This document shows, piece after piece, positions 2,541 through 18,227 of a stretch of DNA of 38,259 nt. The position numbers and the translations under genes are program-made. The first letter of the stretch is position 1, and each line of letters starts with the position of its first letter. The notes under the pieces were generated by a model. The model had not been told where the DNA came from. It ran no database searches and worked only from the letters and a program-made list of their open reading frames with translations. Source of the stretch: Flavobacteriaceae bacterium (GTDB taxonomy: Bacteria > Bacteroidota > Bacteroidia > Flavobacteriales > Flavobacteriaceae); contig JAIUMH010000011.1 of assembly GCA_022565635.1 (NCBI GenBank), positions 1 through 38,259 on the forward strand. Direction: 5' to 3'.

Positions 2541-3992
2541 ATGGTAAATGTGGTTTGGTTTAAACGCGATTTAAGGCTTGAGGATAACGAAGCGCTTCAT
2601 AATGCTCTATTAAATCAAGAGCCTGTTCTTCTGCTCTACCTATTTGAACCAATAGTAGAAAAAGACCCACATTATAGCCTGCGTCATTTTAGGTTCATTG
2701 ATCAATCCATCAAAGATTTACAAAACCAACTAAAAACCTGCCAAACAAAACTCATTTGTCTTCATGAAGAAGCCATAAAGGCTTTTCAGAAGATTGATGA
2801 AATGTTGGGTATTCAATCGGTTTTTAGCCATCAAGAAACAGGTCTATCTATTACCTATAAACGCGATAAAGAGCTTCAGCAATTCTTCTCAAAAAAAGGA
2901 ATTAAATGGAAGGAATCAATTAACAATGGAGTAGTTAGAGGCTTAAATAACAGAAAAACATGGATTAATTCCTGGGAAAACCACATGAACAAGCCTTGCT
3001 ATAAATTTTCTGCACAAAGCAATCAATTTATCAGCAAAAAACAAGCTGAAAGAATAACCAAAGAGTTACGAGTTTGGAATCCTATATTTAAGGAAGACAC
3101 AAATTTTCAACAAGGAGGAAGAAGTTTTGGATTAAGGTATTTAAAAAGTTTTTTAAATAATAGATACAGTAACTACCAAAACCATATTTCTAAACCCCTT
3201 TTGGCAAGAACCTCTTGTAGCAGAATCTCTCCTTACATTGCCTGGGGAAATTTATCCATAAGAGAAATTGTTCAAGAAATAGAAAAGCGTAAAAAAGAAT
3301 TTTCAAATAAAAATGCCATCCATCAGTTTTCTAGTCGCTTAAGATGGCAAGCACATTTTATTCAAAAATTTGAAATGGAAGAGCGTATTGAATTTGAAAA
3401 CTTCAACCCAGCATTTAATCATTTACAACAACAGAAAGATTCCTTCTATATTAAAGCTTGGAAAAAAGGACTAACTGGATTCCCTTTAGTAGATGCAAGC
3501 ATGCGCTGTTTACAACAAACGGGCTATATAAATTTTAGGATGCGTGCTCTGTTGGTTTCTTTTTTTTGTCATTTACTTTGGCAAAAGTGGCAATTGGCTT
3601 CTAATCATTTAGCTTCTTTATTTTTAGATTTTGAACCAGGAATTCATTACCCACAATTGCAAATGCAAGCCGGAACAACAGGAATTCATACGCTTCGTAT
3701 TTACAACCCCATCAAAAACTCTTATCAACATGATCCTAAGGGTGAATTTATATTAAAATACCTACCCGAACTTAGAAAAATACCCGTTGAGTTTGTACAT
3801 GAACCATGGAAATTAACTCCTATGGAACAGCGTATGTATGGATTTAAAATAGGTAAAGATTATCCCGAACCAATTATAGACTTAGAAAGTGCAAGGAAAT
3901 ATGCTTCAGACGAATTATGGAAGATTATTCAATCTCAAAAATCAAAAAAAGCAGGTAAAAAAATCCTTAAAAGACACACTTTAAGAGGTTAA
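2541..3992 (+). CDS. Deoxyribodipyrimidine photolyase / cryptochrome family protein
   Basis: VNVVWFKRDLRLEDNEAL N-terminus; C-terminal FAD-binding region (FPLVDASMRCLQQTGYINFRMRALLVSF...GTTGIHTLRIYNP). Confidence 0.9.
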   Translation: MVNVVWFKRDLRLEDNEALHNALLNQEPVLLLYLFEPIVEKDPHYSLRHFRFIDQSIKDLQNQLKTCQTKLICLHEEAIKAFQKIDEMLGIQSVFSHQETGLSITYKRDKELQQFFSKKGIKWKESINNGVVRGLNNRKTWINSWENHMNKPCYKFSAQSNQFISKKQAERITKELRVWNPIFKEDTNFQQGGRSFGLRYLKSFLNNRYSNYQNHISKPLLARTSCSRISPYIAWGNLSIREIVQEIEKRKKEFSNKNAIHQFSSRLRWQAHFIQKFEMEERIEFENFNPAFNHLQQQKDSFYIKAWKKGLTGFPLVDASMRCLQQTGYINFRMRALLVSFFCHLLWQKWQLASNHLASLFLDFEPGIHYPQLQMQAGTTGIHTLRIYNPIKNSYQHDPKGEFILKYLPELRKIPVEFVHEPWKLTPMEQRMYGFKIGKDYPEPIIDLESARKYASDELWKIIQSQKSKKAGKKILKRHTLRG

Positions 3993-4273
3993 CTTTTTGG
4001 TTTTAAAATTACTTCTTTTGAATCTTTCAATGTTCTCCTTTCAAATTGAAAAGCATCTTTATTAAATATCAATTCTTCTCCCCTTTCTTTAGTGTCTATT
4101 TTAAAATTTCCATCGGCATCAGAATATTCAAACAAATCGGTACCCATAACTTGTATCAACACTTCTTCCACAGGATTTCCTTCCTGGTCTAGTACTCGAC
4201 CTTCAATAATAGAATCATTCTGAGAACATGCCATGAGAAGAAAGACACTTAAGATGTAAATTATTTTTTTCAT
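3989..4273 (-). CDS. Small lipoprotein with carboxypeptidase-regulatory-like (beta-sandwich) domain
   Basis: MKKIIYILSVFLLMACS lipobox; EGRVLDQEGNPVEEVLIQVMGT..SDADGNFKI typical CarboxypepD_reg-like pattern. Confidence 0.7.
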   Translation of the reverse strand: MKKIIYILSVFLLMACSQNDSIIEGRVLDQEGNPVEEVLIQVMGTDLFEYSDADGNFKIDTKERGEELIFNKDAFQFERRTLKDSKEVILKPKS

Positions 4274-4365
4274 CTGTTTAAATTATTTGTTTTTTAGTTG
4301 TCAGATGTAACACCTATAATCATTCTCCTGTGTATAGAAAATTTTGTCATAGATGTTTCATCATT

Positions 4366-5256
4366 TTAATTTTTGATTTTTGAAAACATTCTTTCAATTA
4401 CAATTACGTGCGGAAAAGTCACTGCCGCTATAAAGGCAAACATAATACTTAAAAACATATTTTCACTGCCAAACAAATAATAAAGTACTACCAAACCAAT
4501 AACTGAAATGAGCCAAAATGGAAAAGCATTTTTGACATATAGGAGAAATTTTTGTTTTGATTGATTTTCAAACAGGTAGTTAATTTGGTCTCTTAAAGAG
4601 GGAATTGTATGCCAGAATACAAAATAAATTGCGAAGCCAAAAAGTAATTCTGAATAATAAAAAACTATAAAAATTAAAATTAATGATAGGATTTCTTGAA
4701 CAACCTGCAACGGTTGCAGTAGTTTTTTTATCAGCAAAAAAATAAAAACAAGAAAAGTAATTGATAAAGAGATAAAAAAACCTGATGTAAAATACACTTC
4801 AGGAATGTTGACTTTAATGAGGTCAAAAATAATCTCTCTTGTAAAATTTAAGTTGAAATAAAAAAGTCCTAAAAGTACAGAGAGTCCGTAGATAAAAAAT
4901 AATGTTTTGATTTTGCTACTAGCATGGAGTATCTTCTTGCTTATTTGAAGCTGTTGCTCTCCAAAATGATAGGCACTAATAAAAACAAAACCGGTTAAAA
5001 TTAACCAAGGAAGAAAGTAAAACAGCGCAAGTACTAAAACAACCATACTAACATAACCAAATGTGTATTTATTTAATTCATATGAATGCTTGTTTTTCTT
5101 GATTTTTTTTATGATTAATAAATCATTTGCCCCATGTGCAATACCAACCGTTAAAACAAGAATCAAGGCCAAAATATCAAGGTAATAATTTTTTAACAAA
5201 AAGTTTAACACTATCGCTAAAACACTAGAAAATATTGCTATTACGTAAATTTTCAT
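4366..5256 (-). CDS. blh: Blh/Brp-type beta-carotene 15,15'-dioxygenase (retinal synthesis)
   Basis: Multi-TM protein with AHGANDLLII, YHFGEQQL, FWHTIPSLRDQ, FPHVIVIERM His motifs; divergent from proteorhodopsin. ORF track start at 5280 is TTG within a TATATTTG promoter motif; ATG at 5256 preferred. Confidence 0.88.
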   Translation of the reverse strand: MKIYVIAIFSSVLAIVLNFLLKNYYLDILALILVLTVGIAHGANDLLIIKKIKKNKHSYELNKYTFGYVSMVVLVLALFYFLPWLILTGFVFISAYHFGEQQLQISKKILHASSKIKTLFFIYGLSVLLGLFYFNLNFTREIIFDLIKVNIPEVYFTSGFFISLSITFLVFIFLLIKKLLQPLQVVQEILSLILIFIVFYYSELLFGFAIYFVFWHTIPSLRDQINYLFENQSKQKFLLYVKNAFPFWLISVIGLVVLYYLFGSENMFLSIMFAFIAAVTFPHVIVIERMFSKIKN

Positions 5257-5364: not shown

Positions 5365-6126
5365 ATGAGTAATTTTATGTATTTATTAGCCGACGTATCA
5401 CAAATCGCAAATGACGATTATACCGGCTTTACGTTTTTCATTGGTAGTATGGCTATGATGGCCGCCTCTGCCTTTTTCTTTTTATCACTTAGTCAGTTTG
5501 ACAATAAGTGGAGAACCTCTGTACTGGTTTCTGGTTTAATTACATTTATTGCCGCAGTACATTATTTTTACATGAGAGATTATTGGGATCAAGTTGGAGA
5601 ATCTCCTACTTTTTTCCGATATGTAGACTGGATTTTAACCGTACCATTAATGTGTGTTGAGTTTTATCTCATACTTAGAGTTGCAGGTGCTAAATTGTCC
5701 TTAATGTGGAAATTAATCTTCTGGTCTGTAGTAATGTTAGTTACTGGATACTTTGGTGAAGCAATGTCTATGGACAGTCCAACTATGCAATGGGTTTGGG
5801 GTCTAGTATCTGGAGTTGCTTACTTTATTATTGTGTACATTATTTGGTTTGGTGAAGCTAGAAAATTAGCAGAATCTGCTGGAGGAAATGTATTAGCCGC
5901 ACATAAAGTACTATGTTGGTTTGTGTTGGTAGGATGGGCCATTTATCCTTTAGGTTACATTTTAGGAACTGAAGGTGGTTTATTTGGACTTCAATTAGTT
6001 GAAGATATTGAAGCCGCACAGGGTGCTATGAATGTGGTTTACAATATTGGTGATGCTGTAAACAAGATTGGATTTGGTCTTGTAGTATATGCATTAGCAA
6101 CTAAATCTACTGCAGAAGCTAAGTAA
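5365..6126 (+). CDS. Proteorhodopsin, light-driven proton pump type (DTE motif, green-tuned M105)
   Basis: FRYVDWILTVPLMCVEF: D97/T101/E108 pump triad, M at tuning position 105; H75 in AAVHYFYMRDYW; Schiff-base Lys in GDAVNKIGFGLVVY. Confidence 0.97.
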   Translation: MSNFMYLLADVSQIANDDYTGFTFFIGSMAMMAASAFFFLSLSQFDNKWRTSVLVSGLITFIAAVHYFYMRDYWDQVGESPTFFRYVDWILTVPLMCVEFYLILRVAGAKLSLMWKLIFWSVVMLVTGYFGEAMSMDSPTMQWVWGLVSGVAYFIIVYIIWFGEARKLAESAGGNVLAAHKVLCWFVLVGWAIYPLGYILGTEGGLFGLQLVEDIEAAQGAMNVVYNIGDAVNKIGFGLVVYALATKSTAEAK

Positions 6127-6942: not shown

Positions 6943-7244
6943 AAAACAAAAATTTAATTGGAAACAAATTATATAAAAAGACGCATATAATGCTTCATAA
7001 ATTGTATCAATAACAAAATAATTATGTAAAAACCCAATTGAAAGCCCCTACTCATTAAAAGAGGCCATATTGCTTATTTATTTATCCTTTACATGATCAA
7101 ATCCAAATTTATCCATAGAGTTCTTAAGTATCGTGTAATGCCGTCTTATTTGCCTTCGTATTTCAGGAGCTTGCATAATATTGGACGCTCAGTATGCGTA
7201 TTTGATAAAATTACCTCGATACTTCCTATCAAAATAATCTGTCT

Positions 7245-7472
7245 CTAATTGACCATTTTTGAACACTTGCTTTTTTTTTGGTGACGCATCATCGCTTTTC
7301 TTGGTGCTAAATCTGAACAGTACTCTCCACTACGCCCATCTGAATTACGACGTATTTCACGACTAACAACAGATTTGTCTTTATCAATAGTTCTGGCTAT
7401 TGAAGATTGAGAATGCCCAAGCTTTAGCATTCTAGAAATTGTGTATCTTTGTTCTACGGTAAGGTGTGCCAT
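7245..7472 (-). pseudogene. IS30-family transposase, N-terminal remnant
   Basis: MAHLTVEQRYTISRMLKLGHSQSSIARTIDKDKSVVSREIRRNSDGRSGEYCSDLAPRKA is the IS30 N-terminal HTH; no DDE catalytic region follows. Confidence 0.85.
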
Positions 7473-7657
7473 TGCAAAATTATTTTTGGCAATTTGATGA
7501 AGCAAAATAACACTTTTCCACCAAAACCAAGAAGGAGGTATATTTTACCTTTTTCGGTTTTGAAAAATATTATTTAGAAATCCTCAAATCTTAAAGTTGC
7601 ATTTATTTGTTGAATTTAAGAAAAAATAAAGCAACATCTTGAAAAAATGAGATTGGT

Positions 7658-8530
7658 ATGGAATTAATGAACCTAGAACATATTGAACATAAAATCTATA
7701 CCATTAGAAAGCTTCAAGTAATGCTAGACAAAGACTTAGCGCAACTATATCAAGTAGAAACAAAGGTTTTAAATCAAGCCGTAAAAAGAAATATAGATCG
7801 ATTTCCAGATTCGTTTAGATTTCAATTAACAGATATTGAATTTAATGACTTGAAGTCACAATCTGTGACCTCAAGTTCATCGCATGGTGGTAGAAGATAT
7901 TTGCCATTTGTTTTTACAGAACAAGGTGTGGCCATGTTGTCTGCAGTGCTAAGAAGCGATACCGCTGTTAAAGTGAGTGTTCAAGTTATCAAAGCTTTTG
8001 TAAAAATGCGCCTACTCGTCAATCATAGTAGGTTACTTCAGGAACGTTTGCTTCATCTAGAAATGAAGCAACAAGACCACGAAAAGAATTTTGAAAAGGT
8101 GTTTAAAGCATTAGAAAAAGCAACACCAGAACCTAAGCATGGAATTTTCTTTGAAGGACAAATATTTGATGCCTACACCTTTGTTGCTAAACTCATTAAG
8201 TCTGCCAAAAAATCGATTATTTTAATTGATAATTACATCGATGAAAGTGTATTGACTTTACTTACAAAACGTTCAGAAAGTGTAAAAGCGACTATTTACG
8301 CCGCAAAAATAACCCAACAACTACAATTAGATTTAAAAAAACACAACCAACAATATCCGCAAATCGAAGTAAAACGACTAAAAACCAGTCACGATAGATT
8401 CTTAATTATAGACGATACCAAACTTTACCATATTGGTGCATCGCTAAAAGATTTAGGGAATAAATGGTTTGCCTTTTCTCAAATAGACAGTTTAGCAAAT
8501 GAAATCTTGAATAAATTAGATGAAAATTGA
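7658..8530 (+). CDS. ORF6N-domain DNA-binding protein with PLD-like C-terminal region
   Basis: N-terminus (IRKLQVMLDKDLAQLYQVETKVLNQAVKRNIDRFPDSFRFQLT...RRYLPFVFTEQGVAMLSAVLRS) is classic ORF6N; C-terminus SHDRFLIIDDTKLYHIGASLKDLGNKWFAFS resembles a degenerate phospholipase-D-like HxD/HDR motif. Confidence 0.85.
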   Translation: MELMNLEHIEHKIYTIRKLQVMLDKDLAQLYQVETKVLNQAVKRNIDRFPDSFRFQLTDIEFNDLKSQSVTSSSSHGGRRYLPFVFTEQGVAMLSAVLRSDTAVKVSVQVIKAFVKMRLLVNHSRLLQERLLHLEMKQQDHEKNFEKVFKALEKATPEPKHGIFFEGQIFDAYTFVAKLIKSAKKSIILIDNYIDESVLTLLTKRSESVKATIYAAKITQQLQLDLKKHNQQYPQIEVKRLKTSHDRFLIIDDTKLYHIGASLKDLGNKWFAFSQIDSLANEILNKLDEN

Positions 8531-8554
8531 AACTAAAAATAACAAAACAAATAA

Positions 8555-10483
8555 ATGACCAGAGACCAACTTAAAGAACTTGAAAATAGATTATGGCAAG
8601 CCGCAGACGATTTGCGAGCCAATAGTAAATTAACCGCTTCTGAATACAGTTTTCCTGTGTTGGGGCTTATTTTTTTACGCCACGCCTATAGCCGTTACAA
8701 CAGAGCTAAAGTTGAAATAGAAAAAGAATTACCCGTTCACCCTCAACGCGGAAAAAGACCTGTCAACAAAGCTGATTTTGATTCGGTAAATGCTTTATTT
8801 TTACCTGAAAACGCACAATGGGCTACCATCAACACCTTGCCCGAAAGCACCCCTATTGGCGAGTATTTAGACGAAGCCATGAGAGGCATTGAAAATGAGT
8901 ACGAAGTTTTACAAGGGGTTTTACCTAAGGATTACACTTTGTTTGAAAACGATTTGTTGTTTCGTTTGATACGCATTTTTAACGACCCCATGTTAGACCA
9001 AGTTGAAGGCGATGTTTTTGGTAGAATTTATGAGTACTTCTTGAACAAATTTGCCATGTCTGGTGCTCAAGAAGGGGGTGAGTTTTTTACACCGCCAAGT
9101 TTGGTAAATACCATTGTAAAAATTATTGAGCCCAACCACGGAAAAGTATTCGACCCCGCTTGTGGAAGTGCAGGTATGTTTGTGCAAACGGCTCATTTTA
9201 TTGAAGAAGAAACCCAAGAAGATGCCTCCCGAAAAGTCACTTTTTACGGACAAGAAAAAGCCGATACCAACACTAAATTGGCTAAAATGAACATGGCGGT
9301 TCATGGTCTTGAAGCCAATGTCATGCAAGGAAATTCCTTTTATGAAGATCATCATGAATTGGTAGGTGAATGTGATTTTGTGATGGCCAATCCACCCTTT
9401 AATGTAGATGGTGTAGATAAAAACAAAGACAGTGTAAAAAACGATGCGCGTTTACCCTTTGGCTTACCCAAAAGCGACAATGCCAATTATCTTTGGATAC
9501 AGTATTTTTATGCGTATTTAAATAAAACAGGACGAGCTGGATTTGTCATGGCGTCTTCTGCTTCAGATGCAGGACATTCTGAAATGCTTATACGGAAAAA
9601 ATTAGTAGAAACGGGAGCGGTTGATGTCATGGTTTCTATTGGCACAAAATTCTTTTACACTCGTTCTTTACCCTGTTCGTTGTGGTTTTTTGACCGAGAA
9701 AAAGAACAAGACGAAAAACGAGCTGACCAAACCCTGATGCTGGATTTACGGGATGTGTACCGAAAAGTCTCCACCAATTTGCACGACTTTACCGAAGAAC
9801 ATTTACAAAACATTCATGCTATTGTGGCTTTATACCGTGGTAATCCTTTGGTATATAACAATGCCATAGCTTCTTACCAAAGCAAAGCAAAATCTTATCT
9901 AAATGAAGCACAATTAGTAATTAATGATGTGCTTACCTACCTAAGCAAATCTGAAGAAGAAGCTAGCAACCACTACTTACAAGTAGCCGAAGCGAAAACA
10001 CTCTACCAAAAAACCTTAAAAGCTGACAATGCCAAGGAAGATAAACGTAAAATTAATTTACAAATCAAGCAACATATTGAAAGCATAAAAACAAGATTAG
10101 CTGAAGAAAAAGACAAAGCTAAAAAACGAGATTTACGGGAAGCTATAGGTCGTTTGGAAGATTTACAACACAGCTTTACCGAAGCTATGGACCAACACTT
10201 GTATTTTGTAAAAGAATACCATTGGTTGCACAGCCGTTTTCCTGAGGGCAAGTACAAAGATGTCCCTGGACTTTGTAAAATTGCACACAGAGATGAGATT
10301 GCTGAAAACGATTACAGCCTTACCGCAGGACGTTACGTAGGCGTTGCCCCAATAGAAGAAGATGAAAACTTTGACTTTGATGAACGTATGCTAGAAATTA
10401 AAAACGAGCTACAGACGCTTAACACCGAAGCCAACGAACTCGCCCAACAAATACAACAGGATTTAACGGATTTAGGGATATGA
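8555..10483 (+). CDS. hsdM: Type I restriction-modification N6-adenine methyltransferase subunit
   Basis: FDPACGSAGMFVQTA (SAM motif), MANPPFNVDG (NPPF motif), GRIYEYFLNKFA, EGGEFFTPPSLV. Confidence 0.96.
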   Translation: MTRDQLKELENRLWQAADDLRANSKLTASEYSFPVLGLIFLRHAYSRYNRAKVEIEKELPVHPQRGKRPVNKADFDSVNALFLPENAQWATINTLPESTPIGEYLDEAMRGIENEYEVLQGVLPKDYTLFENDLLFRLIRIFNDPMLDQVEGDVFGRIYEYFLNKFAMSGAQEGGEFFTPPSLVNTIVKIIEPNHGKVFDPACGSAGMFVQTAHFIEEETQEDASRKVTFYGQEKADTNTKLAKMNMAVHGLEANVMQGNSFYEDHHELVGECDFVMANPPFNVDGVDKNKDSVKNDARLPFGLPKSDNANYLWIQYFYAYLNKTGRAGFVMASSASDAGHSEMLIRKKLVETGAVDVMVSIGTKFFYTRSLPCSLWFFDREKEQDEKRADQTLMLDLRDVYRKVSTNLHDFTEEHLQNIHAIVALYRGNPLVYNNAIASYQSKAKSYLNEAQLVINDVLTYLSKSEEEASNHYLQVAEAKTLYQKTLKADNAKEDKRKINLQIKQHIESIKTRLAEEKDKAKKRDLREAIGRLEDLQHSFTEAMDQHLYFVKEYHWLHSRFPEGKYKDVPGLCKIAHRDEIAENDYSLTAGRYVGVAPIEEDENFDFDERMLEIKNELQTLNTEANELAQQIQQDLTDLGI

Positions 10484-11661
10484 GTTGGAAAATAACAAAA
10501 ATGCAGGATGTTACAACTAGAATTGGAGATGGGCTTCATGGTACTCCGAAATATGATGTGAACGGAGAGTATTATTTTATAAATGGTAATAATTTACAAA
10601 ATGGTAAAATTGAAATTAAATCATCAACGAAAAAAATCACTTACGAAGAATATTTTAAAATAAAAAAGGATTTAAACGATAGAACAATCCTTGTATCTAT
10701 AAATGGAACCTTAGGAAATATAGGTATTTACAATAATGAAAAAATAGCTTTAGGGAAAAGCGCATGTTATTTAAATATTAAAGAAAATATCAGCAAATTA
10801 TTTATAAGATATGTTCTTGAAAATGAACCCTTTCAAGGTTATGCTTTTAGATTTGCAACAGGATCAACAATAAAGAATTTAGGACTTAAAGCTATTAGAG
10901 AATTTAGTTTCAATCTCCCCCCACTCCCCACCCAACAAAAAATAGCCTCCATTCTTGGGGCGTATGATGATTTGATTGAAAACAATTTAAAACGCATCAA
11001 GTTATTAGAAGAAGCCGCTCAAAATTTATATAAGGAATGGTTTGTCAATTTTAAGTTTCCAGACCATGAAAACCATCCAATGGATGAAGAAACGGGATTG
11101 CCTGAGGGGTGGGAAAAGAAAGAGTTAAAGGAATTATGTCACTTGACTATGGGACAAAGCCCAAAATCAGAATTTTATAATGATGAAAAAAATGGGTTGC
11201 CTTTTCATCAAGGTGTTTCAGATTTTGGATTAAGATTTGTAAAAAACTCCACTTATTGCACAAATGAAACAAGACTAGCTTATGAAGATGATATTCTTTT
11301 TAGTGTTAGAGCCCCCGTTGGTCGTTTAAATATTAGTCCTGAAAAGATCATTATTGGTAGAGGGTTATCATCGATTAGGAATAAAAAAGATTTTCAGTCA
11401 TTCCAATTCTATCAGCTTAAAAATCATTTTTACCAAGAAGATATGATAGGTGGTGGAGCTATTTTTAATTCAGTGACAAAAAAAGTTCTAGAAAGTCAGA
11501 AATTAATTTCCCCTGATGATGAAACTTTAAATTTATTCGAAAGTAAAGTCGAAAAGATTGATAAGCAAATTAAAAATTTAGACATTCAAAATCAACAACT
11601 CCAGGAAGCCCGAGATTTATTGTTGCCTAGATTGATGAATCAAGAGATTAACGTAACATGA
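10480..11661 (+). CDS. hsdS: Type I restriction specificity subunit
   Basis: Two TRD halves separated by LPPLPTQQKIASILGAYDDLIENNLKRIKLLEEAAQNLYKEWF; ATGA overlap with hsdM. Confidence 0.94.
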   Translation: MSWKITKMQDVTTRIGDGLHGTPKYDVNGEYYFINGNNLQNGKIEIKSSTKKITYEEYFKIKKDLNDRTILVSINGTLGNIGIYNNEKIALGKSACYLNIKENISKLFIRYVLENEPFQGYAFRFATGSTIKNLGLKAIREFSFNLPPLPTQQKIASILGAYDDLIENNLKRIKLLEEAAQNLYKEWFVNFKFPDHENHPMDEETGLPEGWEKKELKELCHLTMGQSPKSEFYNDEKNGLPFHQGVSDFGLRFVKNSTYCTNETRLAYEDDILFSVRAPVGRLNISPEKIIIGRGLSSIRNKKDFQSFQFYQLKNHFYQEDMIGGGAIFNSVTKKVLESQKLISPDDETLNLFESKVEKIDKQIKNLDIQNQQLQEARDLLLPRLMNQEINVT

Positions 11662-11668
11662 AAATAAA

Positions 11669-12805
11669 ATGAAAAAGTTCACAACCAGAAGTACATCACT
11701 TTACTCTCAAAATGTAAACGAACCTATAATTATTGAAGAAAAGGAAACGACTAGAAAAATTTTCTTAGCTGAAATTAATGATAAAAAATTACAATCTGGT
11801 GAAACTGTAAGTGGAACTATAATTCATCAAAGGAAAAGCAAAAATGATAAATGGGAGGACATAAAATCAATTAACCTAAATACACTTAAAGCAGGTGAAG
11901 GAGTAAAACTAAAATTAAGAAGTACCCAAATAAAAAAATTATATGATGGTTTGACAGAATTGTACGCTTTAAGTAAAAAAGGGGTTAAGAGTGGTGAAAA
12001 TGAATATATAGTTGGAACTTCAGATGAAACTATTAATGTTCCAAAAAAGAGAAAAGAATATATTGAAAAATTACTACAGGAAGATTATGGTCAAGAAATT
12101 TGGGATGAACTGGTTGATAATAATCCTGATTTAGCTACTAAATTATCAAACTCAAGAATTCAAAATAATAGATTACTTGCACTAAAAGAATTTGAAAATT
12201 CAATTTTGGATGCATCAAAAAATGAGCAATATTGGCAAGATTTCTTTACAAATAATGAGTGGATATTTGGCTATGGTTTAAATTATCAGTTCTTATCTAT
12301 AAAATCAGATCAACCTAATTATGGCGGTCAAAATTATGCTGGTAAAGGAAAACAAAAGGGTGATTATCTTACAAATACTAATTCTGATGATGTTAAGTTT
12401 ACAGTTTTAGTTGAAATTAAAAAACCATCAACTGATTTAATAGCTAAATCAAAAAATGGAGAAGGTAGAAAGTATAGAAATGGTGCGTGGTTATTGGGGA
12501 GCGAAGTTTTAGGAGGTGTTGCACAAGTGCAAGCAAATTGTAAATCTTGGCAGAGAAATTCGGAAATATTAGAAAATAGAGAATTAATGTATGAGCATAT
12601 ATATACTGTTCAACCAAAAGGGATTCTATTGATAGGTAACACAGAACAGTTCAAAAACGATATGACCAAATTAACTACTTTCGAACTATTTAGAAAAGGG
12701 CTAAACTCGGTAGAAATTTTAACTTATGATGAGCTTTTAGAAAGAGCAAAATTTATTCTAGGACAGAAAGAAAAACCATTAGAAGAAGAAAAAAACGACC
12801 TATGA
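11669..12805 (+). CDS. Shedu-type immune nuclease (SduA, DUF4263)
   Basis: EQYWQDFFTNNEWIFG; GDYLTNTNSDDVKFTVLVEIKKPSTDL (D...ExK nuclease core); EVLGGVAQVQ; PKGILLIGNTEQF...ELFRKGLNSVEILTYDELLERAKFIL. Starts 7 nt after hsdS stop. Confidence 0.87.
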   Translation: MKKFTTRSTSLYSQNVNEPIIIEEKETTRKIFLAEINDKKLQSGETVSGTIIHQRKSKNDKWEDIKSINLNTLKAGEGVKLKLRSTQIKKLYDGLTELYALSKKGVKSGENEYIVGTSDETINVPKKRKEYIEKLLQEDYGQEIWDELVDNNPDLATKLSNSRIQNNRLLALKEFENSILDASKNEQYWQDFFTNNEWIFGYGLNYQFLSIKSDQPNYGGQNYAGKGKQKGDYLTNTNSDDVKFTVLVEIKKPSTDLIAKSKNGEGRKYRNGAWLLGSEVLGGVAQVQANCKSWQRNSEILENRELMYEHIYTVQPKGILLIGNTEQFKNDMTKLTTFELFRKGLNSVEILTYDELLERAKFILGQKEKPLEEEKNDL

Positions 12806-12870
12806 GCAAAGCCTATTCAGAAGATTTATTAATAGAAGCCACCGCCATGCAATTGTTGGAAGGTTTAGGC
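12798..12870 (+). repeat. 73-bp direct repeat, copy A (matches 15020-15092)
   Basis: acctatgagcaaagcc...ttggaagGtttAggc; 3 mismatches to copy B by manual alignment. Confidence 0.95.
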
Positions 12871-12888
12871 TTTGTTTTTAGTTCTTAA
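12802..12888 (+). pseudogene. 5' remnant of hsdR (first ~23 codons, then stop)
   Basis: MSKAYSEDLLIEATAMQLLEGLGFVFSS*; first 23 codons match the start of hsdR at 15024 (MSKAYSEDLLIEATTMQLLEDLGW...). Start overlaps Shedu stop as ATGA. Confidence 0.92.
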
Positions 12889-12940
12889 GTGTTCGAACTA
12901 TTTTTTTAGCTAAAATTTACTTTAATTCAATTTTAAGCTC

Positions 12941-12948
12941 TATTTTTG
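12941..12948 (+). promoter_or_regulatory. Candidate -7 element (TATTTTTG) upstream of the RloA-like gene
   Basis: Matches TAnnTTTG, 29 nt upstream of the ATG at 12977; weak -33. Confidence 0.35.
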
Positions 12949-12976
12949 TAAAAATATTACAAATACCAACAATAAA

Positions 12977-14230
12977 ATGGTTTTAGAAATCAAGCTAAGT
13001 AACTTTTTCTCGATAAATGATGAAGTGATTTTAGATTTACGTGCGGGAAACATCAACACTGCAAAATCAAAAACATTAGCTAAAAACACCTTTGATTACG
13101 AGGGTACAGAAGTATTAAAAAATGTGGCCATATATGGAGCTAATGCATCAGGTAAATCCAACATTATTAAAAGCATTCGTTTTTGTAATGCCATGGTTTA
13201 TGAATCTCATAAGCATAATGAAAATACAGTTTTTAATTTTAAACCTTTCAAATTCAATAAATACTCAAATAAGCCTTCAAAATACGCCATACGTTTTGTG
13301 ATTAACGGCATTGAATACAAGTATGCCTTTTCGTTAAATAGAACGCAAATACTCACAGAGAGTTTATACTACTATCCCAAAGGCAGAAAAGCAAAAGTTT
13401 TTGAGCGGGATGAAAACGCAGGAAAAACCAAAAGAGAAAAATACTCATTTGGTACTTCTGTTATAAAACGCCCCTTTGATGTTGCAGAAAATACGTCCAA
13501 TAAGACCTTATACATTTCTCGTGCAAGCCAAATGGATAGGGAAATACCCAAAGCCATGTTCAATTTCTTTCACAGAGATTTTATTCTTCATCATTCAAAT
13601 TACAGCAAGAGCAATCTTAATTTCTTAGTTAATTCATACAAAAATCAATTACTTACAGCCTTACAATACGCAGATAGTGACATTATAGATTTTAAAATTA
13701 ACTTTAGTAAAGAAAAAGGGAAAAGCTTAAAAGCCAATTTAGATACAGAAGAAGCTTTTTTTGTAGAAGAAGAGATGGAGAAGGTAGAATTAAAAACCTT
13801 CCATAGATTCTCCCCAAAAGTAGCCTTCGATTTTAATGAAGAATCATTGGGTACACAAAAATTATTTTTTATGATGTTGACCATTATAGATATAGTAAGA
13901 AATAATAAAACCCTTTTAATTGACGAAATAGAAGACAGCCTTCACCCAAAAATTGTGGAATACATTTTAGAATTATTCAACGCCAGCGCAAAAGCTCAAC
14001 TGATATTCTCGACGCATAATACTAACCTTTTGGATCTTAATAAATTTAGAAAAGACCAAATTTGGTTTGTAAACAAGAAAAAAGACGGAGGTTCAGATTT
14101 ATATTCACTTTATGATTATAGCGATTTTAGAGATACTATGGACTTAGAAAAAGCATACCTTCAAGGCAGGTTTGACTCTATCCCAATTATAAATGATGCT
14201 GTTGAAAATTTGCATTCTATTATAGATTAA
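12977..14230 (+). CDS. AAA family ATPase, RloA / AbiLi-like
   Basis: Walker A GANASGKSN, Walker B LLIDEIEDSLHP, STHNTNLLD; 4-nt gap to an RloB-like gene. Confidence 0.88.
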   Translation: MVLEIKLSNFFSINDEVILDLRAGNINTAKSKTLAKNTFDYEGTEVLKNVAIYGANASGKSNIIKSIRFCNAMVYESHKHNENTVFNFKPFKFNKYSNKPSKYAIRFVINGIEYKYAFSLNRTQILTESLYYYPKGRKAKVFERDENAGKTKREKYSFGTSVIKRPFDVAENTSNKTLYISRASQMDREIPKAMFNFFHRDFILHHSNYSKSNLNFLVNSYKNQLLTALQYADSDIIDFKINFSKEKGKSLKANLDTEEAFFVEEEMEKVELKTFHRFSPKVAFDFNEESLGTQKLFFMMLTIIDIVRNNKTLLIDEIEDSLHPKIVEYILELFNASAKAQLIFSTHNTNLLDLNKFRKDQIWFVNKKKDGGSDLYSLYDYSDFRDTMDLEKAYLQGRFDSIPIINDAVENLHSIID

Positions 14231-14234
14231 AAGT

Positions 14235-14780
14235 ATGTCTAGAAAGAGAAGGGAGCCAAAAGGTAAAAAGATAAATCCAACATTGTTTGTATTCTGTGAA
14301 GGTGATACAGAAGAAGCCTATGTAAATTTCTTGAAATCTCTCTATAGATTGCCTTCTATTCAAATTCGTTCAAAAATAGGAGGAAACAATATCACATCTG
14401 AATTCATCTCAAATTATAAAAAGGGAAAACCGACACATGAAAAAGACTTAGATTTTTTAATGTATGATGTTGATGTTCCTGAAATTGTAGAAAGACTTCA
14501 AAAAATAGAAAAATCAACACTACTTTTATCTAATCCTTGCATCGAGCTTTGGTTTTTGCTTCATTATAAAAACCAAACAGCTCACATAAATAGTGCTAAA
14601 TGTTGTCGCGAAATGGCAAACCGAAATAGAGTTTATAAAAAAGGTATAATTGATAATAAACTAAAAGAAAAACTTATTTCCAAAAAGGAAGTTGCAGTAA
14701 AAAGAGCTAAAGAATTAGCAGAAAATAATAATCCAAGTTCAACCGTTTACAAATTTATTGAAACACTTGAGCAGTTATAA
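14235..14780 (+). CDS. RloB-like protein (Toprim-like nuclease, AbiLii-like)
   Basis: TLFVFCEGDTEEAYVNFLKS (Toprim-like EGxTEExY), LMYDVD, LLSNPCIELWFLLHYKN (RloB hallmark). Confidence 0.88.
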   Translation: MSRKRREPKGKKINPTLFVFCEGDTEEAYVNFLKSLYRLPSIQIRSKIGGNNITSEFISNYKKGKPTHEKDLDFLMYDVDVPEIVERLQKIEKSTLLLSNPCIELWFLLHYKNQTAHINSAKCCREMANRNRVYKKGIIDNKLKEKLISKKEVAVKRAKELAENNNPSSTVYKFIETLEQL

Positions 14781-15019
14781 GTTTTAATTATACGGAATTT
14801 ATTATTTTCATTACATTTGATAAGATTAAACAAATTTGGTGTCGTTACTGCGAAAGTAAATCAAATATCAAATTACTGCTTTTAATAAAACTTATGGTTA
14901 TTTTTACAAGCAGGTGAATTCTTTGTTAATAACAAACTAAAGCATTCATAAGCGAAATTTATATTATTAGATTTATAAAGACAAGACGATGCTACGATTT
15001 AAAAAAATAATTCCAACTT

Positions 15020-15092
15020 ACCTATGAGCAAAGCCTATTCAGAAGATTTATTAATAGAAGCCACCACCATGCAATTGTTGGAAGATTTGGGC
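15020..15092 (+). repeat. 73-bp direct repeat, copy B (matches 12798-12870)
   Basis: Start of intact hsdR; see copy A. Confidence 0.95.
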
Positions 15093-18000
15093 TGGCAAGG
15101 AGCCAACGTCCATCATAACGAACAATTTGGTGAGCAGGGTTGTATTGGCAGGGATAACCAACAGCAGGTTATACTCAAACATCGTTTTTTAACCGCCATA
15201 AGGCATCTCAACCCCAATTTACCAGAAACAGCTTATCTCAATGCCTATGATAGCATAGCGCAAAGTGATATTACCAAAACACTGGTGCAACTCAATTTTG
15301 AAAAACACCACCAACTCACCGAAGGTATTCCCGTCAATTATAAAGATGAAAAGGGAAAATTAGTTAGAAATAAAAAAATACAGGTCTTTGATCACCAAAA
15401 CCCAGAGGAGAATAACTTTTTAGCCGTTCAACAACTTTGGGTCAAAGGAAGAGCGGGCATGTCCAGAAGACCAGATGTCGTTGGTTTTGTCAATGGTATT
15501 CCATTGGTGTTTATAGAACTCAAAGCCCACCATATCCCTATCAAGTCGGCATACAGCGATAATTTAAGCGATTACAAAGATGCCATTCCACATTTATTGC
15601 ATACCAATGCTTTGGTGATTTTAAGCAATGGTTTACAATCTAAAGTAGGTTCTGTAACTTCCAAATTCGAGCATTTTAATGAATGGAAACGCATCAACGA
15701 AGAAGATGAAGGAGCCGTCCAATTGGAGACCATGATTAAAGGGGTTTGCAATAAAACCAATCTTCTGGACCTACTTTTCAATTTTACCCTATTTGATGAT
15801 TCCTTAGGAAAACCCATAAAGTTAGTCGCCAGAAACCATCAATTTTTAGGGGTAAATAAGGCGATAGCACATTTTAAAACCAAAAAAGAAGCCTACCAAA
15901 ACCATAAAATATCAAAAGAAGAAGCACAACGCTTAGGAGTATTTTGGCATACCCAAGGAAGTGGAAAATCCTATTCCATGGTATTCCTAACCGAAAAGAT
16001 TTTCAGAAATTTAGGAAGCAACTATACATTTATATTGGTGACTGATAGAAATGAACTTGATAGTCAAATTTACGGAACCTATCGTGGTGTTGGAGCCGCA
16101 CATGATAAAAATGCTAAAGCCAAAAGTGGTGAACATTTAAGAGAGTTGCTACAAACCGATCATCGGTATATTTTCACCTTAATTCACAAGTTTAATTTTG
16201 AAGAAGAAATAAGTCAGCGAGACGATATTATTGTTATCTCAGACGAAGCCCACCGTACCCAAGGCGGTAGTTTGGCCATGAATATGCGCAAAGCTTTACC
16301 CAACGCTTCATTTATTGGTTTTACAGGCACACCCCTGTTCAAAGACGATGAATTGACCAAACGTATTTTTGGGGATTATGTGTCCAAATACGATTTCAAG
16401 CGCTCTATTGAAGATGGAGCAACAGTTCCTTTGTACTATGAAAATCGGGGTGAAAAATTAAAATTAGAAAATCCGCAAATCAATGAAGACATCAAATCTA
16501 AGATTGAAGAATTTGATTTGGATGATGATCAAACTGAAAAACTAAAACGCCTTTTTGCTCAAGAATATCCAATTTTAACGGCTAAAAAACGATTAAAATC
16601 TATAGCTAAAGACGTTATTTCCCACTTTAATGAAAGAGGTTACAAAGGGAAAGCTTTGTTTATTGCCATAGACAAAGTAACGGCAGTACGCATGTATAAT
16701 TACATGACAGAAGCCTTAAGTGAGTATATAGTAGCGCTAGAGCAAAAGGTGAAATCTATTTCAGATGAGCAAGAACAGCTCATTGCCCAACGTGAACTTA
16801 ATTGGGTAAAAGAAACTGAAATTTCTGTAGTGGTAAGTTCAGAGCAAAATGAAATCAAAAAATTTAGAGATTGGGATTTAGATATTCTTCCACATCGGGA
16901 GAAAATGAATACACGTGATTTAGAAAAAGATTTCAAAGACGAAGAAAATCCGTTTCGAATTGCCATTGTTTGCGCCATGTGGATTACAGGTTTTGATGTA
17001 CCAAGTCTTTCCACTTTGTATATAGACAAGCCTTTAAAATCGCATACCTTAATGCAAGCCATTGCCAGAGCCAACCGTGTAAAAGAAGGCAAAAACAACG
17101 GTTTAATTGTAGACTATATTGAAACGTATAGAGCTTTACTCGATGCATTAGCGGTTTATGGAGGAGGAAAATCAAACGGAAACGGAACTGATACAGACGG
17201 TAAAGATGAACCTCCAGTAAGGCCATTAGAAGAGCTAGAGGAAGACCTAAAAGAAACCATTGATGCCACTGCATCTTTTTTAAAAAATGAGTGTGATTAT
17301 TTACTCTCCAAATTAGTAGAAACTGAAGATGGTTTACAACGTCTAGGGCTAATTCAACTAGCTTACGATGCCGTTTGTAAAACCATTGACACCCGAAATA
17401 AATTTAATGTATTGGCCAGGGAAGTATTTAAAAAATACAAAGCATTAATGCCAAATACCTTGGTATATAAATACCAAGCACAAAGAGACGCTATTAACGC
17501 CATTTATAACCTCATCCAAGATAAAGTAGAAGATGCAGACATTACTTATGAAATAAGGCAAGTTCAAGAGCAGGTTAATGAGTCTATTGCCACGTATCAA
17601 ACCGCTTTAGAAAAAGCGGAGGATTACGGTAAAAAAATTGATTTGAGTAAGTTGGATTTTGATAAAATCAAAGAAGAGTTTGATAAGCTAAAGTCAAATA
17701 AAAATATAGTCGTTAAAGATTTACAGGAACGAGTTCGTAAAAAGCTAGAAAAAATGCTCAAAAATAATCCCTTACGTATAGATTACTACGAACGCTACCA
17801 AGAAATTATAGATGCTTACAATGATGGGAAAGAATATACTTCGGTAAAAGAAGTTTTTGATGAGTTGATCAAATTATTTGAAGACCTAACTCAAGAAGAC
17901 CAGCGTGCTACTCAAGAGGAGCTTTCTGAAGAAGAGTTGGCAGTTTTTGATTTATTAATGAAAGGAAAAAAGATAACAGATAAGGAGCGAATTAAGTTAA

Positions 18001-18227
18001 AAAAAGCCGCTCGGTCATTGCTAGAAAAGCTACAATCCAATGAATTTAAAGTTGAAAATTGGACACAAAAAAATCAAACAAAAGCCGCCGTTAGAAGAGT
18101 GATTAATGACTACTTATATACTAAACTTCCTTACCCCACCTATGAAGATGGGGACATAGCTGTAAAAACAGAATTGCTATATAACTTCTTTGAAAACCAT
18201 TACGGTGATTATGGGAGGGTTGGGTGA
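15024..18227 (+). CDS. hsdR: Type I restriction endonuclease subunit R
   Basis: RPDVVGFVNGIPLVFIELK nuclease motif; FWHTQGSGKSYSM Walker A; VISDEAHRTQGG DEAH box; GFTGTPLF; long coiled C-terminus. Confidence 0.96.
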   Translation: MSKAYSEDLLIEATTMQLLEDLGWQGANVHHNEQFGEQGCIGRDNQQQVILKHRFLTAIRHLNPNLPETAYLNAYDSIAQSDITKTLVQLNFEKHHQLTEGIPVNYKDEKGKLVRNKKIQVFDHQNPEENNFLAVQQLWVKGRAGMSRRPDVVGFVNGIPLVFIELKAHHIPIKSAYSDNLSDYKDAIPHLLHTNALVILSNGLQSKVGSVTSKFEHFNEWKRINEEDEGAVQLETMIKGVCNKTNLLDLLFNFTLFDDSLGKPIKLVARNHQFLGVNKAIAHFKTKKEAYQNHKISKEEAQRLGVFWHTQGSGKSYSMVFLTEKIFRNLGSNYTFILVTDRNELDSQIYGTYRGVGAAHDKNAKAKSGEHLRELLQTDHRYIFTLIHKFNFEEEISQRDDIIVISDEAHRTQGGSLAMNMRKALPNASFIGFTGTPLFKDDELTKRIFGDYVSKYDFKRSIEDGATVPLYYENRGEKLKLENPQINEDIKSKIEEFDLDDDQTEKLKRLFAQEYPILTAKKRLKSIAKDVISHFNERGYKGKALFIAIDKVTAVRMYNYMTEALSEYIVALEQKVKSISDEQEQLIAQRELNWVKETEISVVVSSEQNEIKKFRDWDLDILPHREKMNTRDLEKDFKDEENPFRIAIVCAMWITGFDVPSLSTLYIDKPLKSHTLMQAIARANRVKEGKNNGLIVDYIETYRALLDALAVYGGGKSNGNGTDTDGKDEPPVRPLEELEEDLKETIDATASFLKNECDYLLSKLVETEDGLQRLGLIQLAYDAVCKTIDTRNKFNVLAREVFKKYKALMPNTLVYKYQAQRDAINAIYNLIQDKVEDADITYEIRQVQEQVNESIATYQTALEKAEDYGKKIDLSKLDFDKIKEEFDKLKSNKNIVVKDLQERVRKKLEKMLKNNPLRIDYYERYQEIIDAYNDGKEYTSVKEVFDELIKLFEDLTQEDQRATQEELSEEELAVFDLLMKGKKITDKERIKLKKAARSLLEKLQSNEFKVENWTQKNQTKAAVRRVINDYLYTKLPYPTYEDGDIAVKTELLYNFFENHYGDYGRVG

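Follow-up and report, generated by a model that had tools for sequence, protein, structure and literature searches.

A duplicated hsdR start beside an AbiL cassette in a Flavobacteriaceae type I restriction-modification operon, and similar scars in other hsd loci

Defence systems are often embedded in type I restriction-modification (R-M) operons, and we know of no established route by which they enter such a tightly packed operon without breaking it. The window analysed here is a 38,259-nt stretch of DNA from a Flavobacteriaceae bacterium (contig C11, JAIUMH010000011.1, of the 3.04-Mb, 248-contig draft assembly GCA_022565635.1), in which a type I R-M operon carries a Shedu nuclease gene and an AbiLi/AbiLii (RloA/RloB) pair, the AbiL cassette, between the specificity gene hsdS and the restriction gene hsdR. 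The start of hsdR is present twice, as a short stub directly behind Shedu and as the start of an intact gene behind AbiL. As an earlier note made from the sequence alone had proposed, the stub is an insertion scar that marks the old hsdR start, and four other loci have the same architecture. The cassette probably came from a second hsd locus that already carried AbiL beside hsdR, by recombination with a homologous right junction and an illegitimate left junction. Recurrence of the scar beside different defence genes in four other bacteria suggests a clue to how these operons are loaded with defence genes.

The duplicated hsdR start in the window

The AbiL cassette is flanked by a long direct repeat of 74 nt (12798-12871 and 15020-15093, both on the + strand) with three mismatches, at positions 12844, 12863, and 12867, and a longest identical run of 46 nt. 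The two copies are 2222 nt apart. The earlier note had placed the repeat at 12798-12870 and 15020-15092 (73 bp); its mismatch count and spacing were borne out, and only the length needed correction. The BLAST alignment it had called for gave a self-match with an E-value of ∼1e-29, far beyond chance, and within the 3.04-Mb assembly the repeat matched at two places only, the two copies themselves. Both edges are abrupt, with 2 of 10 bases matching just outside the repeat on the upstream side and 0 of 10 on the downstream side.

The left copy opens a 28-codon reading frame (12802-12888, +) whose translation, MSKAYSEDLLIEATAMQLLEGLGFVFSS*, matches HsdR at 21 of its first 24 residues, confirming the truncated, stop-terminated hsdR copy that had been described directly after Shedu. 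The duplication covers the first 23 codons of hsdR, and the stub ATG overlaps the Shedu stop codon as ATGA. The right copy (15020-15093, +) forms the start of the working hsdR, which is intact, as are the genes between the copies. When the flanks were joined in silico, the Shedu end (...EEEKNDL*) overlapped ATG AGC AAA GCC by ATGA and ran on into an unbroken hsdR, 2222 nt shorter than the present arrangement; the proposal that recombination between the repeats would recreate an intact hsdR thus holds in the scripted join, and this configuration is likely the state before insertion. The stub itself is likely without function. A general role as a leader peptide was considered and rejected, because stubs in two of the other loci described below (L033 and L077) carry early stop codons.

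The interval between the copies holds the AAA ATPase/RloB pair that the earlier note had recognised, confirmed here by Pfam (PF13304 and PF13707) and by PADLOC (AbiLi and AbiLii). The suggestion that the cassette has its own promoter fared less well: a single TAnnTTTG box lies at 12941, with no TTG at the expected distance, and 64 such boxes occur in the window. Nor was the idea of an active excisable defence module borne out. No recombinase was found among the open reading frames (ORFs) and Pfam domains of the interval, none travels with the cassettes of the other loci, the repeats vary in length from 35 to 108 nt among loci, and stubs decay. Lacking a recombinase and a fixed repeat length, the cassette is not a site-specific mobile element, and any excision would be ordinary homologous recombination, which in the window would be aided by the 46 identical nt. 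Excision of the AbiL cassette is possible, and would restore the Shedu-ATGA-hsdR join.

Recurrence of the scar beside different cassettes

A second hsdR start was present upstream of hsdR in 5 of 42 hsd loci, the window included, each time beside a different cassette. This fraction is biased as a frequency, given that the window was preselected and that two loci (L077 and L112) came from pattern searches listing both copies; in the set collected by HsdR homology alone, a stub was present in 2 of 31 loci. In the isolate genome of Parafilimonas terrae (L040), the order is McrBC, stub (50 nt), PsyrTA, and hsdR, and the stub stop overlaps the next ATG. In L033, from a metagenome-assembled genome (MAG) labelled Chryseobacterium gleum, PsyrTA is followed by a stub (108 nt), a trio of three small genes, one of them with a helix-turn-helix (HTH) domain, and hsdR. 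L077 (genome G213) has McrBC, a stub (68-nt repeat), a pair that we label HipA-type from a reading of the sequence, with no Pfam result, and hsdR, while L112 (G672) has XRE-IrrE/DUF4411, a stub (35 nt), a DUF6577 gene, and hsdR. Stop codons lie inside the stubs of L033 and L077.

The repeat is confined to the start of hsdR. Relative to the hsdR ATG, it begins at −4 nt in the window, at 0 in L040, L033, and L112, and at −7 in L077, and it ends at +70 in the window, +50 in L040, +108 in L033, +61 in L077, and +35 in L112. If starts were distributed uniformly, the chance of all five falling within the first ∼10% of the repeat would be ∼1e-5 by our own calculation. As a control, hsdR from all 42 loci was divided into 100-nt tiles, and each tile was compared with the 9 kb upstream (E ≤ 1e-10). 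The five matches obtained were all to the first tile (the first 100 nt of hsdR), and the other ∼1,100 tiles gave none.

These observations bear on two other explanations. That the repeat is an assembly artefact might be suspected of a 248-contig draft, and we consider it extremely unlikely: each copy has its own flanking sequence, the repeat is short, base differences distinguish the copies, and the architecture occurs in four other genomes in all, including the P. terrae isolate. It is also very unlikely that AbiL inserted illegitimately and that the hsdR start was then duplicated locally in a separate step. A standalone AbiL cassette does occur outside any hsd locus, in genome G492 (L125, turned, 3080-4953; 76% DNA identity to window 12913-14763), and on the strength of this copy AbiL is an independent cassette. 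Such a history would nevertheless need two events, and the duplication would have had to meet the cassette border precisely in each of five loci whose cassettes differ.

Duplications of a similar kind were seen elsewhere in hsd loci. In L120 (G523, turned so that hsdR is on the + strand), the last ∼25 hsdM codons plus the following spacer are present in three copies (4470-4679, 5753-5947, and 6984-7193) that separate two DUF1016-like genes lying in the hsdM-hsdS gap; the pattern is a mirror image of the hsdR scars, here in what has been called the mlo slot. The start of a RhuM-like gene is duplicated within the hsdS-hsdR slot of L114 (G646, turned; 8032-8138 and 8805-8911) and of L118 (G701; 7718-7810 and 8026-8118), and these repeats begin at or just before the RhuM-like ATG, as the stubs do at that of hsdR. 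One further candidate stub, in L026, was rejected as a scaffold gap filled with N.

Parental alleles and a probable route of insertion

For three of the scarred loci (L033, L040, and L077), both donor-type alleles, in which the cassette abuts hsdR with no stub, and recipient-type alleles, in which hsdR is adjoined by the left-hand system, were found. PsyrTA abuts hsdR in five loci (L014, L016, L018, L020, and L039) and the HTH trio does so in four (L015, L021, L116, and L023); McrBC stands before hsdR in the recipient-type loci L007, L017, L078, L080, and L113. For the HipA-type pair the donor-type allele is L079 (G266; 6977-8566), where the pair is followed by a decayed hsdR 5′ region. The rest of that operon does not lie nearby, and the locus adjoins copies of a longer repeated element.

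The most informative comparison is between L018 and L033. Their sequences agree to 99.99% over 7472 nt on one side and to 99.90% over 5938 nt on the other; what sets L033 apart is one cassette, together with a 108-nt duplication at the start of hsdR (a second copy of L018 8986-9093). The left copy in L033 equals the L018 hsdR start, early TAG included. The right copy has GATAATTTA, as in donor-type loci, in place of GATTGTTTG, and reverts to recipient sequence beyond ∼36 nt. Mismatches between the two L033 copies fall within ∼40 nt of the beginning of the right copy, and most of them agree with L015, L021, and L116, in which the same cassette adjoins hsdR; at two positions the right copy has a base of its own that is found in neither parent. 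The right copy of L033 is thus a chimera of donor and recipient, the signature of a homologous crossover within the hsdR start. The sharing of >13 kb at ∼99.9% identity between L018 (from a MAG labelled Chitinophaga pinensis) and L033 is an observation in itself; recent transfer, origin from the same population, and mis-binning are all possible, the last because the family names differ and the L018 contig is short.

A long target duplication, as described for R-M genes of Helicobacter pylori (Nobusato et al., 2000), offers another account, in which a staggered break of ∼35-110 nt would leave two initially identical copies, both derived from the recipient. In that species, R-M insertions between repeats have been described alongside an empty-site allele, the repeat lengths seen here (35-108 nt) fit, and the window copies differ by only 3 nt. 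An empty-site, single-copy allele was found for L033 (L018) and, by type, for L077 (L080), and none was found for the window. On the other hand, the repeats always begin 0-7 nt upstream of the hsdR ATG and none extends beyond the last bases of the upstream gene, whereas staggered breaks would be expected to copy upstream-gene ends and hsdR starts equally often, a pattern that is absent. The right copy of L033, moreover, is partly donor and holds donor-type bases absent from the recipient, so that the two copies there do not both derive from the recipient. This chimera favours recombination with another hsd locus over a simple target-site duplication, which we regard as unlikely.

The arrival of AbiL by recombination with another hsd locus would also account for where the repeats begin, since incoming DNA would be homologous only from the hsdR start on if it came from a locus with its cassette before hsdR. 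A further point in favour comes from L077, whose stub has GATGTATTA (part of QDVL) in common with the McrBC-linked allele L080 and not with its own right copy, the latter being 98% identical to the hsdR start of another species. The window has the layout, the repeat edge at the ATG, and the repeat size of the other scarred loci. By analogy with L033, the events in the window may have run as follows. An hsdM-hsdS-Shedu-hsdR operon would have met DNA from another hsd locus with AbiL next to hsdR; the incoming hsdR start would have recombined homologously with the resident one, and the other end would have been joined illegitimately ∼70 nt inside resident hsdR. Shedu and one complete hsdR would be kept with AbiL between them, and the first 23 codons of the old hsdR would be left as the stub. 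Repeated at the same spot, such events would stack cassettes, each separated by an hsdR scar and the newest adjoining hsdR. The homologous anchor is represented by the chimeric right junction in L033 and would lie, judging by position, at the right junction of the window. The non-homologous join would be the left junction, where similarity breaks off abruptly inside hsdR.

A related alternative is that in the donor the cassette was already flanked by a stub on one side and an hsdR start on the other, and that it was exchanged by homology on both sides or entered as a circle through a single crossover, the repeats then serving as a reusable homology address for a reversible, Campbell-like unit. 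In both the window and L077, the copies hardly differ over the first ∼34-46 nt and diverge farther along, on the 3′ side of the stub, which would follow if the left copy combined a recipient 5′ part with a donor stub 3′ part, and the L018/L033 pair is compatible with excision. Among the loci compared, however, no two have the same cassette behind the same stub, the stub ends differ in every case, and neither a circular form nor an excised junction was seen in the assembled sequences. We therefore judge such a two-sided exchange to be improbable.

Several points weigh against the one-sided route that we favour for the window. The three mismatches are on the 3′ side, unlike those in L033, which are on the 5′ side of the repeat; they could reflect drift of a non-functional stub. 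Of the two origins that the earlier note had offered for the mismatches, different hsdR alleles fit L018/L033, and those of the window may be drift. About 240 nt separate AbiL from hsdR, whereas most donor-type cassettes abut hsdR. The L018/L033 pair would fit either insertion or excision and leaves the direction unfixed, because these are MAG contigs with different family labels, the L018 contig is only 18 kb long, and both hsdR starts are damaged. In the E. coli loci examined (L142, L143, L144, and L145), the slot differs and there is no stub. Finally, the searches made returned no close relative of the window locus, no allele with AbiL next to hsdR, and no AbiL-less sister with Shedu next to hsdR. 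Because of these gaps and the position of the mismatches, we hold the route to be no more than probable, and long target duplication and two-sided exchange stay in contention.

The three closest HsdR relatives (L003, L004, and L009; 71-73% identical) have hsdS overlapping hsdR by ATGA with nothing between. A search with hsdR-start DNA among 199 relatives returned this genome only, besides four short partial matches inside the coding part of the query. Among 400 genomes of the family, RloB searches found the standalone AbiL of G492 and, in G477, a fragment; hsdR adjoins neither of them. A Shedu search in the same family found no close neighbour, only a distant hsdS-Shedu-hsdR without AbiL in G480 (L134), which lends support to the insertion reading. 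The cassette-less alleles that the earlier note had called for were found for other cassettes (L018 for L033, and the L080 type for L077) and not for the AbiL locus of the window. Viral contigs gave no match to HsdR or RloB, plasmids gave two distant RloB matches only, and genus-level searches around L077 and L112 gave no cassette-less sister, with a related hsdR beside a different neighbour in G874. In E. coli, where 540 records held 550 hsdR-start places, and in a Klebsiella plasmid (L136), the slot before hsdR varied among L142-L145 and L136: it was empty, held YecA, or held YecA together with a gene for a cold-shock-domain protein. Along with the neighbour, the first ∼18 nt of hsdR differed, and no stub was present.

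The operon, known systems, and meaning

All genes of the operon lie on the + strand, and hsdM, hsdS, and hsdR are all open by ORF and Pfam domain content. The methyltransferase gene hsdM (8555-10483; N6_Mtase, 3e-81, and HsdM_N) is immediately preceded by a gene for an ORF6N-domain protein (7658-8530) and followed by hsdS (10480-11661; Methylase_S, 1e-28). Then comes the Shedu gene sduA (11669-12805; SduA_C and SduA_N; PADLOC SduA, 5e-61), which is an earlier occupant of the hsdS-hsdR slot than AbiL. The left junction and AbiLi leader (12872-12976) include the start of homology to the G492 cassette, at 12913. The AAA ATPase AbiLi/RloA (12977-14230; AAA_21, 4e-36; PADLOC AbiLi, 5.8e-82) is followed after 4 nt by AbiLii/RloB (14235-14780; RloB, 7e-24; PADLOC AbiLii, 5.1e-22). 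An AT-rich spacer (14781-15019; 24% GC) with a weak TAnnTTTG box at 14812, for which no significant match was found among the loci compared, leads to hsdR (15024-18227; 1067 aa; SWI2_SNF2, HSDR_N, and T1RH-like_C). Both proteins of the pair match PADLOC models of the AbiL abortive-infection system, and phage-induced abortive infection would be their predicted action; what differs is the placement of the pair in a type I R-M operon, with Shedu on one side and hsdR on the other. Judged by family membership, type I R-M, Shedu, and AbiL are probably each an independent anti-phage system, here combined in one operon.

The slot itself is already known. In Campylobacter jejuni, the name rlo was given to ORFs that intervene between hsdS and hsdR, and mlo to those between hsdM and hsdS (2005 work cited in PMC5183652), in agreement with the naming given in the earlier note; these are foreign ORFs in the same slot and the names RloA and RloB fit the window pair, while hsdR-start scars form no part of the passages on them in that paper. 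The hsdS-hsdR site has also been called a potential recombination hotspot for defence systems, with DarTG2 in the RRDM island of enteropathogenic E. coli as an example (PMC12255303) and with reference to ‘guilt by embedding’ (Payne et al., 2024, as cited there). Slot and embedding idea are the same, but the passages of that paper on the site give no insertion scar or junction mechanism, whereas the repeats and the chimeric junction point to one here.

Repeat-flanked R-M insertions are likewise known. As related in passages of PMC1643837 and PMC4978471, the H. pylori case resembles ours in that a gene block linked to R-M lies between long direct repeats and another allele is single-copy; here the cassettes are other defence or toxin-antitoxin-like genes, the repeats are anchored at the start codon of hsdR, and one right copy is chimeric. 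Homology-facilitated illegitimate recombination has been proposed for type VI secretion system immunity-gene arrays of Vibrio cholerae (Kirchberger et al., 2017, PMC5361080), which likewise combine a conserved anchor on one side with an illegitimate join on the other, successive insertions yielding ordered leftovers. Whole immunity genes are left there, whereas a short fragment of the anchor gene is left here. Our search of open-access papers returned no report of hsdR-start scars beside embedded defence cassettes, and the recurrent scar with its chimeric junction appears to be a new detail.

A scar with identifiable parental alleles offers a testable answer to how such operons are entered: the hsdR start would serve as a homology anchor, so that hsdR survives and its old start is left behind. 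More speculatively, the conserved hsdR start may be a general landing site at which operons gain and exchange entire defence systems, with the newest adjoining hsdR, each event recorded by a stub and reversible by recombination between stub and start, and the hsdM end may serve the mlo slot in the same way. If the proposed route is correct, such scars would let the order of acquisition within an operon be read from sequence alone, and would mark which genes in the slot came as separate units.

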